Positions 8,955 to 12,497 of a stretch of DNA of 48,545 nucleotides are shown piece by piece. Numbering within the stretch: the first letter of the stretch is position 1; every line of letters begins with the position of its first letter. The stretch is taken from contig JAHYJI010000006.1 of NCBI GenBank assembly GCA_019429145.1, positions 1 to 48,545 on the forward strand, given 5' to 3'. The position numbers and the translations under genes were made by a program. The stretch comes from Coriobacteriia bacterium (lineage in GTDB: Bacteria; Actinomycetota; Coriobacteriia; Anaerosomatales; SLCP01). The notes under the pieces were generated by a model. It made no database searches and had not been told where the DNA came from. It saw only the letters and a list, made by a program, of their open reading frames with translations.

Positions 8955-8970
8955 GACTGGAGGAAGACGT

Positions 8971-10308
8971 ATGACGCGGCTCTTCGGCACTGACGGGGTA
9001 CGCGGGATAGCCAACGCCGACCTGACCCCGGAACTCGCCTTTCGTCTCGGCGAGGCGGCCGGCCACTTCCTCGGTGAGAAGGGCAGAGGACGCATCGTCG
9101 TCGGCAGGGACACGCGGCGATCCGGCGAGATGCTCGAAGCCGCGATGGTTGCAGGCTTGTGCTCCGGTGGCGCCGACGCGTTGGTGGCAGGTATCGTGCC
9201 GACGCCGGCGGTCGCCTACCTGGCCCGCGAGCTCGGTGCCGATGGCGGCGTTGTGATCTCGGCGTCGCACAACCCCGCGACCTACAACGGGATCAAGCTC
9301 TTCAACCGCGACGGATTCAAGCTCCCCGACGAGCTGGAGGACGAGATCGAGGAGTTCATCGTCTCGGAGAGGGAGTGGGAGCGGCCGACCGGCGCCGGCG
9401 TAGGCCGTTCGATCAAGGTGGACGACGCAGTCGCCCGCTACGTCGCGCACGCGCTGGATGCCGTCGATCACGACCTCACGGGCATGACGATCGCGGTCGA
9501 CTGCGGCCACGGGGCTGCGAGTGTGGCGACGCCCCGGGCTCTGAAGGAGCTGGGCGCGACGGTGGTCAGCCTCAACTGCGAGTGGAACGGCATGGACATC
9601 AACGACGGCTGCGGGTCGACGGACCTCGGACCCCTCACCGAGATGGTGAAGTCGCATCAGGTCGACTTCGGGATCGCCCACGACGGTGACGCCGACCGCG
9701 TGCTTGCAGTCGACGGCAACGGTGAAGAGGTGGACGGCGATCTCATCATGGCGATCTGTGCCGTCCAGATGAAGGAGCAGGGTCTCCTCGCCGGCGACAC
9801 GGTCGTGAGCACCGTGATGTGCAACCTCGGCTTCGAAGTGGCGATGCGCGAGCATGGCATCAACGTCATCAAGACCAGAGTCGGGGATCGCTACGTCCTC
9901 GAACAGATGCGGTCGTCAGGCGCCTCGCTCGGCGGGGAGCAGTCCGGGCACGTCATCTTCCTCGAGCACAACACCACCGGCGACGGGCTCGTCACGGCCC
10001 TCCATCTCGCATCCGCGATCAGGCGTTCCGGAAGCCCGCTGACACAGCTGCGCACGGTCATGAAGCGCTACCCCCAGGTGCTGGTCAACGTCGAGGTCAA
10101 GGACAAGGGGCTGCTCGGAGCCAGCGCGGCGGTCGCCGCGGCGGTTCGCGAAGCCGAGGAGGCTCTCGGCGACACGGGCCGCGTGCTCGTGCGGGCGAGC
10201 GGGACCGAGCCGCTCGTGCGCGTGATGGCAGAGGCCTCGGACGGGGATGTCGCCGCAGCGATCGTAGAGCGGCTGGTGGAGGTCGTCCGCACCGAACTCG
10301 ACGGCTAG
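8971..10308 (+). CDS. glmM: Phosphoglucosamine mutase
   Basis: GlmM converts glucosamine-6-phosphate to glucosamine-1-phosphate on the path to UDP-GlcNAc. The 445-residue protein begins RLFGTDGVRGIAN, has the phosphoserine loop ISASHNP with S99, the metal loop DGDADR and the C-terminal RASGTEPLVRVM phosphate-binding loop. I chose ATG 8971 because GGAGGA lies just upstream and the family start follows; the frame is also open upstream across the terminator. glmS follows after a riboswitch leader. Confidence 0.95.
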   Translation: MTRLFGTDGVRGIANADLTPELAFRLGEAAGHFLGEKGRGRIVVGRDTRRSGEMLEAAMVAGLCSGGADALVAGIVPTPAVAYLARELGADGGVVISASHNPATYNGIKLFNRDGFKLPDELEDEIEEFIVSEREWERPTGAGVGRSIKVDDAVARYVAHALDAVDHDLTGMTIAVDCGHGAASVATPRALKELGATVVSLNCEWNGMDINDGCGSTDLGPLTEMVKSHQVDFGIAHDGDADRVLAVDGNGEEVDGDLIMAICAVQMKEQGLLAGDTVVSTVMCNLGFEVAMREHGINVIKTRVGDRYVLEQMRSSGASLGGEQSGHVIFLEHNTTGDGLVTALHLASAIRRSGSPLTQLRTVMKRYPQVLVNVEVKDKGLLGASAAVAAAVREAEEALGDTGRVLVRASGTEPLVRVMAEASDGDVAAAIVERLVEVVRTELDG

Positions 10309-10336: not shown

Positions 10337-10345
10337 TGGTATACT
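10337..10345 (+). promoter_or_regulatory. Extended -10 promoter for the glmS ribozyme leader
   Basis: TGGTATACT is a TGnTATACT extended -10 element, 58 bases before the predicted ribozyme cleavage site. A -35 at 17-base spacing (GCGGTC) is poor, which extended -10 promoters tolerate. It would place the transcript start near 10352 and the whole ribozyme in the leader. Confidence 0.5.
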
Positions 10346-10401
10346 CGTCACGAACCGATGTCGGCAGAAAGGGGTCGCCGCACACGCTGAACGCAGTACC
10401 A

Positions 10402-10570
10402 AGCGCCCGGACTGGGAGCGCCTCATGCCTTCCAGTTGACGAGGAGAGAGCTTATCGAAGGATTCGGCGGATGGCTCTCCGGCTTGACCGGGGTCGTGAC
10501 GGCATCGACAAACCCTGCGGGCGACCGCGGAGACAAAGCGATGTCGCACCGGTGACTCACCTTCTCAGGA
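10402..10570 (+). ncRNA. glmS ribozyme: glmS ribozyme (GlcN6P-activated self-cleaving riboswitch)
   Basis: The conserved core is readable: AGCGCC-GGACTG near the cleavage site (between 10402 and 10403), then TTGACGAGG, TTATCGA and ATTCGGCGGATGG. Helices can be drawn. P1 is ACTGG (10411-10415) with CCAGT (10432-10436). CGCC (10404-10407) can pair with GGCG (10466-10469). P3 is CCGG-CTTGA-CCGG (10479-10491), whose loop can pair with TCAGG (10565-10569) as the P3.1 pseudoknot. The ACAAACC...AGACAAAG internal loop closed by GCATCG/CGATGT matches P4. The family senses glucosamine-6-phosphate as cofactor and cleaves the glmS mRNA, lowering GlmS output. Confidence 0.92.
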
Positions 10571-10588
10571 GCTGTTCCGGCTCCGCTC

Positions 10589-10645
10589 CCCGACACGTTG
10601 TATCGTCGGGCATCAACCACGTACATGCAGCGCACGCCTGTGCGC
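10589..10645 (+). other. Two hairpins between the ribozyme and glmS
   Basis: CCCGAC (10589-10594) pairs with GTCGGG (10605-10610), and GCGCAC (10630-10635) pairs with GTGCGC (10640-10645) across GCCT. They lie downstream of the ribozyme core and just before the glmS ribosome binding site (AGAGG near 10660). They are not part of the known ribozyme fold. They could shape the cleaved mRNA 5' end or the start site; no U-tract is present. Confidence 0.4.
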
Positions 10646-10670: not shown

Positions 10671-12497
10671 ATGTGCGGAATCGTCGGATACATCGGTCCA
10701 CGCCAGGCGAGTGACGTCCTCATCGGCGGCCTCGCCCGGCTCGAGTACCGTGGCTATGACTCGGCAGGCATCGCGATCTTGAGCAGTGCGGGCCTTGACG
10801 TGGTTCGCCGTCTCGGCAAACTCGTGAACCTGTCCAACGCCGTGAGCGAGTCGCCTGTGCCGGGCACGCTCGGCATCGGTCACACCCGCTGGGCCACCCA
10901 CGGGCGGCCGAGTGAGGAGAACGCGCATCCTCACATCGACTGTACCGGCCGGATCGCCGTCGTGCACAACGGCATCATCGAGAACTACCTGGAGATGCGC
11001 GAAGAGCTCTCGGCAACCGGACACATCCTCCGCTCGGAGACCGACACGGAGACCATCGCGCACCTCGTCGAGGCCTACTACGACGGCGACCTGGCCGCAG
11101 CGGTCAGCCGTGCCATCAAGCGGCTCGACGGCAGCTACGCGCTCGGCGTCGTGCACCTGGATCATCCGGATGTGCTGGTGGCGGCGCGCAAGGATTCGCC
11201 GCTGATCATCGGCATCGGTGAAGGCGAGAACGTGGTGGCCAGCGACATCCCCGCCGTGCTCGAGTACACGCGCGAAGTGCTGGTACTGCACGATGGCGAG
11301 GTCGCGATCGTCACCGCCGACGGCGTGCGCGTCCGGACGCTCGAGGGGGCTGACGTGAGCGATCCTGAGATGATGCACGTCGAGTGGGACCTCGCAGCAG
11401 CCGAGAAGGGCGGATACGACGATTTCATGCTCAAGGAGATATTCGAGCAGCCCAAGGCGATCCGGGAGACGCTGCGCGGCAGGATGTGCAACGGCGAGAT
11501 CCAGCTCTCCGAGCTCGACATGAAGCCCGAGCAGGTGGCGGGGATCGACCGGGTCTTCATCATCGCGTGCGGCACCTCGTATCACGCCGGGATCGTGGCC
11601 AAGACACTGATCGAGCAGTGGGCGCGCATCCCGGTGGAGGTCCAGGTCTCCTCCGAGTTCCGCTACGCTGACCCCATCGTCGACGACGACACCCTCGTTG
11701 TCGCGATAACGCAGTCCGGGGAGACGGCCGACACGCTGGCAGGTGTGCGCGAGGCGCGCGAGCGCGGCGCGAAGGTCATCGCGATCACCAACGTGGTGGG
11801 CAGCCGGGTCACGCGCGAGAGCGATGGCGTCATCTACACGCATGCCGGCCCCGAGATCGGGGTCGCGGCAACCAAGACCTTCACAGCGCAGATCGCGGCC
11901 CTCTACGTGCTCGCGTTGAAACTGGCACAGGCCAAGGGCACGGTGCAACAGGAGCGCATCGAGCACCTGTGGTCAGAACTCTCCCGCATACCCGACCTCG
12001 TTGCCACCATTCTCGAGGACATCGATGGTCTCAGGGAGTGCGCGGACGAGTACATCGGTGCGCGGTCCTCGCTCTTCCTCGGCAGGGGCATCGGCGTGCC
12101 CATCGCGATGGAGGGCGCACTCAAGCTCAAGGAGATCTCCTACATACACGCCGAAGCGTATCCCGCCGGCGAGATGAAGCACGGTCCCATCGCGCTCATC
12201 ACCGAGGAGGTCCCGGTGGTGGTGGTTGCCACGCAGGGACACACCTACGAGAAGGTCGTGAGCAACATACAGGAGGTCCGTGCCCGCGGGGCACAGGTGA
12301 TCGCGGTCGCCACCCACGGCGATGAGGAGATCCGCCGCCACGCCGAGCACGTCCTGTACATACCGGCCACGACCGAGTCACTCTCGGCCATTCCCGCGAC
12401 GATCCCGCTCCAGCTGCTCGCCTACTACATCGCCAAAGCGCGCGGCTGCAACGTCGACCAGCCGCGCAACCTCGCCAAGTCAGTGACGGTAGAGTAG
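10671..12497 (+). CDS. glmS: Glutamine-fructose-6-phosphate aminotransferase (isomerizing)
   Basis: GlmS makes glucosamine-6-phosphate from fructose-6-phosphate and glutamine, the first committed step to amino sugars. The 608-residue protein starts MCGIVGYIG, so Cys2 becomes the N-terminal nucleophile of the glutaminase domain (about 1-235). Two SIS sugar-isomerase domains follow, with ACGTSYHAG and TQSGETADT in the first. It ends NLAKSVTVE, the conserved tail. The ribozyme upstream gives product feedback. acpS follows by four bases. Confidence 0.97.
   Translation: MCGIVGYIGPRQASDVLIGGLARLEYRGYDSAGIAILSSAGLDVVRRLGKLVNLSNAVSESPVPGTLGIGHTRWATHGRPSEENAHPHIDCTGRIAVVHNGIIENYLEMREELSATGHILRSETDTETIAHLVEAYYDGDLAAAVSRAIKRLDGSYALGVVHLDHPDVLVAARKDSPLIIGIGEGENVVASDIPAVLEYTREVLVLHDGEVAIVTADGVRVRTLEGADVSDPEMMHVEWDLAAAEKGGYDDFMLKEIFEQPKAIRETLRGRMCNGEIQLSELDMKPEQVAGIDRVFIIACGTSYHAGIVAKTLIEQWARIPVEVQVSSEFRYADPIVDDDTLVVAITQSGETADTLAGVREARERGAKVIAITNVVGSRVTRESDGVIYTHAGPEIGVAATKTFTAQIAALYVLALKLAQAKGTVQQERIEHLWSELSRIPDLVATILEDIDGLRECADEYIGARSSLFLGRGIGVPIAMEGALKLKEISYIHAEAYPAGEMKHGPIALITEEVPVVVVATQGHTYEKVVSNIQEVRARGAQVIAVATHGDEEIRRHAEHVLYIPATTESLSAIPATIPLQLLAYYIAKARGCNVDQPRNLAKSVTVE

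Follow-up and report, generated by a model that had tools for sequence, protein, structure and literature searches.

In this coriobacterial genome, a glmS ribozyme of the conventional kind occupies the gap between glmM and glmS, as part of the 5′ leader of glmS. We give the whole explanation, in which glucosamine-6-phosphate (GlcN6P) would trigger self-cleavage and RNase J would degrade the cleaved message, a probability of about 95%. glmS ribozymes are self-cutting RNA switches that shut down the amino-sugar gene glmS. Across the window, by which we mean the whole 48.5 kb stretch of DNA analyzed, Infernal returns a single Rfam match, RF00234 at 10391–10556 on the forward strand (96.5 bits against a gathering score of 37; E = 9.5e-23 on the local stretch). 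The alignment spans the full model (1–167 of 167), and the 2.07 Mb assembly contains one copy genome-wide. An earlier note made from the letters alone had called a glmS ribozyme here and proposed the search with the Rfam model; the full-length match, the complete set of helices, the invariant core, and the covariation described below bear that call out, and we confirm a real and ordinary member of the class, typical of its order. The note placed the element between glmM and glmS, as the protein family matches on both sides also do, and its cleavage position agrees with the site predicted by the RF00234 alignment. The ribozyme itself begins at G10403 and closes near U10553 with the 3′ strand of P3.1, so the note's end at 10570 lies about 15 nt too far, inside a distinct hairpin further downstream. 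The controlled gene matches its family at equivalog level and encodes the sole full-length GlmS in the genome.

8968–10308, forward strand: glmM, phosphoglucosamine mutase (TIGR01455, 558 bits)
10402–10403, forward strand: predicted self-cleavage site A-1/G1, A10402/G10403 (RF00234 alignment; AGCGCC invariant in 48 sequences)
10403–10553, forward strand: glmS ribozyme RF00234, P1 to P4 with pseudoknots (Infernal, alignment, covariation)
10671–12497, forward strand: glmS, glutamine-fructose-6-phosphate transaminase, the controlled gene (TIGR01135, 856 bits)

The structure is carried by comparison among relatives. We aligned 48 relatives by sequence only (35 of them belong to the same order, 13 to other lineages) and mapped eight helices onto the alignment. 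Paired cells amount to 92.8%, versus 31–45% when partners are slid by 1–3 columns, and the covariation score is 0.451 versus at most 0.127 in the slid controls; because both values lie far above these controls, the structure exceeds chance. Both sides change in 30/41 pairs, and most of the covariation falls in P1, P3.1, P4, and P4a (12/13 pairs change on both sides in P4 and P4a together). Single-sequence folding energy was not significant (z = −1.08) and was dropped as evidence for the ribozyme. All helices were found, including the P2.1/P2.2 double pseudoknot, and the P1, P3, P3.1 pseudoknot, and P4 pairings that the note had drawn by eye are all present on the alignment.

10404–10407 with 10466–10469, forward strand: P2.2 pseudoknot (CGCC/GGCG invariant, 48/48)
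10410–10416 with 10431–10437, forward strand: P1 (97% of cells paired; both sides change in 6/7 pairs)
10438–10444, forward strand: core GACGAGG, active-site strand (invariant in 48 sequences)
10446–10450 with 10475–10479, forward strand: P2 (82% of cells paired, sequence-only alignment)
10480–10484 with 10492–10496, forward strand: P3 (88% paired)
10487–10491 with 10549–10553, forward strand: P3.1 pseudoknot, ACCGG with CCGGU (85% paired; both sides change in 5/5 pairs)
10500–10506 with 10540–10546, forward strand: P4 (95% paired)
10515–10520 with 10525–10530, forward strand: P4a, closed by the GNRA loop GCGA at 10521–10524 (97.5% paired)

The active-site segments AGCGCC, GACGAGG, UCGGCGG, and ACAAA are invariant in the 48 sequences and intact in the window; P2.2, being invariant, adds no covariation. 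The predicted partners for docking of the GNRA loop on P1 are likewise invariant across the 48 (the C10412–G10435 pair and the loop G and A). Some of the misses in P2 and P3 arise because the aligner shifts Rubrobacter-type rows by one base. P3 in the window also has two weak pairs (G–U and U–G), which we count against the preferred explanation. P1 and P3 had been described as GC-rich, compensated versions of AT-richer helices; compensatory change in P1 is real, but G–C pairs make up only 3/7 of P1 and 3/5 of P3. It is barely credible that the element is a degenerate or inactive relic: such relics do occur in the family (at locus L159, below), but here the core positions are all intact and the score is typical of the order, whose carriers range from 78 to 111 bits. 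The P1 loop (10417–10422) contains another AGCGCC, with the same letters as the cleavage-site strand, that could, judged by sequence, compete for GGCG, the P2.2 partner.

For the cleavage, its ligand, and the route of decay we infer the following course. Transcription would start near 10352 from a TGG-TATACT promoter. As the GlmS product GlcN6P accumulates, it would bind the preformed pocket and serve as cofactor for cleavage at A10402/G10403. The cleaved glmS mRNA would keep a 5′-OH, RNase J would degrade it, and GlmS would fall, by the mechanism of B. subtilis, where RNase J1 degrades the 5′-OH product of glmS self-cleavage (PMC3997798). A homologue of RNase J (546.8 bits) is present at another place in the genome. 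TATAAT-like hexamers occur in 45/49 carriers of the order at a median of 65 nt upstream of the cleavage site; upstream of the extended −10 element we found no match to the −35 consensus.

10337–10345, forward strand: putative promoter −10 element of the extended type, TGG TATACT, TGGTATACT (sequence)

The ribozyme is the usual arrangement in the order, which we infer to be Anaerosomatales (formerly OPB41), and not an oddity of this genome. It is carried by 32/41 sampled relatives of the order. A class-wide sample gave 55 matches in 300, five of them in genomes of a single other family and nearly all the rest in the same order; a phylum-wide sample gave 75 in 397 genomes across several families. 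With 32/41 and 75/397 carrying it, the earlier suggestion that this copy extends the known range, or samples a thinly represented part of it, holds only weakly. Where a relative with the ribozyme has a name, it is labelled Coriobacteriia or Actinomycetes, in keeping with the high-GC actinobacterial genome that had been proposed. Horizontal arrival in the lineage of the window alone was rejected, since a GlmS tree groups its GlmS with those of the order's other carriers.

Compared with known members of RF00234 (B. subtilis, Thermoanaerobacter tengcongensis, B. anthracis), the copy in the window shares the core GCGCC, GACGAGG, and UCGGCGG, the double pseudoknot, P3.1, P4 with its GNRA loop, and the site upstream of glmS. 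It differs in lying in a high-GC genome of the coriobacterial class, in having two conserved hairpins within the roughly 117 nt that separate it from glmS, and in a leader element resembling a Shine–Dalgarno (SD) sequence. Within the phylum, a Rubrobacter-like family (f36, which we take to be Rubrobacter) and families f42, f26, f51, and f18 have the same ribozyme family in the same place before glmS. In f36, P1 begins GGACUCC versus GGACUGG here, P2 is out of register by one base, and most leaders lack the purine-rich element.

The ribozyme has been lost in some relatives. Four genomes (G004, G013, G019, and G033) have a glmS 76–85% identical to that of the window behind a short leader without the ribozyme; it is therefore dispensable, since close relatives in the order live without it. 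In G005 (L159) a P4-like arm alone (CGGGTGACTGCAGGGCCGAAGCGG) is left between promoter and glmS, as expected if an element that once worked has decayed. Genera g33, g38, and g39 of family f12 have a distant GlmS (about 50% identity). At loci L152–L155 of the same order (in G113, G054, G083, and G081), where GlmS is likewise only about 50% identical, the gene upstream is a different one and the ribozyme is missing. These distant enzymes point to probable gene replacement.

Only two points were unexpected, the conserved leader element and the hairpins downstream of the ribozyme. The purine motif of the leader occurs in 35/35 training loci of the order; it lies about 29 nt past the start of the −10 element and about 35–36 nt short of the cleavage site.

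10366–10379, forward strand: purine-rich, SD-like leader element AGAAAGGGGTCGCC, with no start codon at a usable distance and a putative function (purine motif, anti-SD energy)

Anti-SD energy is −8 kcal/mol or lower in 31/35 training and 13/14 held-out carriers (44/49 in total), in a zone chosen on the training loci and among loci related by descent. In a narrower zone 78% of the 49 carriers reach this value versus 10% of stretches drawn at random from those loci, and the zones on either side of it in these leaders score at background level or close to it. Family f18, of the same class, has the element in 4/5 leaders, versus 1/11 Rubrobacter-type leaders. By analogy, the order's ribozyme might also cut off a 5′ stabilizer like the STAB-SD of cry3A mRNA, making a two-part decay switch: the element would bind 30S subunits and so block RNase J on intact mRNA, and cleavage would both strip this ribosome-bound guard and expose the 5′-OH end. 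We consider this possible though rather unlikely. Frequency and position of the motif speak for it, as do the rarity of a start codon at SD distance among training carriers, the RNase J homologue, the canonical anti-SD found in one relative, and the block of RNase J1 by STAB-SD in cry3A, whose 5′ end likewise has an SD-like sequence nearby and no start codon to go with it (PMC4113751). The likeness to cry3A, which has no known coupling to a ribozyme, is a functional analogy only; of the STAB-SD hallmarks, the putative element in the window displays anti-SD complementarity and position. Against the stabilizer reading, the element of the window pairs only moderately well (−8.0), the homologue L131 does equally well without having a ribozyme, the scoring zone was picked on training loci that share descent, and NTG directly follows the purines in about half of loci, so that a leader ORF is possible in some. 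A conserved leader peptide after the purines was rejected: most loci have no start codon there, and the reading frame is not kept. Our literature search found no description of a two-part decay switch for glmS ribozymes.

The same purines might instead pair with the P2 3′ strand in place of its normal partner, switching the ribozyme off. By sequence the leader GGAGNYGCC is able to pair with that strand (GGCUCUCC), but native pairing energies (−18.2) are matched by swapped ones (−18.4) and approached by shuffles (−17.3); swap and shuffle tests thus lend the pairing no support, and we rejected it as very unlikely.

The second unexpected point, the pair of hairpins, lies in the spacer between ribozyme and glmS.

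10568–10584, forward strand: hairpin H1 (compensatory change in 19 relatives)
10589–10610, forward strand: hairpin H2 (both sides change in 4/6 pairs)

On 19 aligned loci from part of the order, 83.6% of H1 and H2 cells are paired versus 42–54% in slid controls. Both hairpins lack a U-tract. An intrinsic terminator between ribozyme and glmS was rejected, the sole terminator-like site being on the minus strand, inside the ribozyme.

For this mostly uncultured, high-GC order, glmS ribozymes are standard equipment, and about 50 diverse sequences are now usable for refining the RF00234 family. The order also supplies a clear example of a decaying ribozyme and of gene replacement, and with its conserved leader element a specific decay mechanism can be tested.
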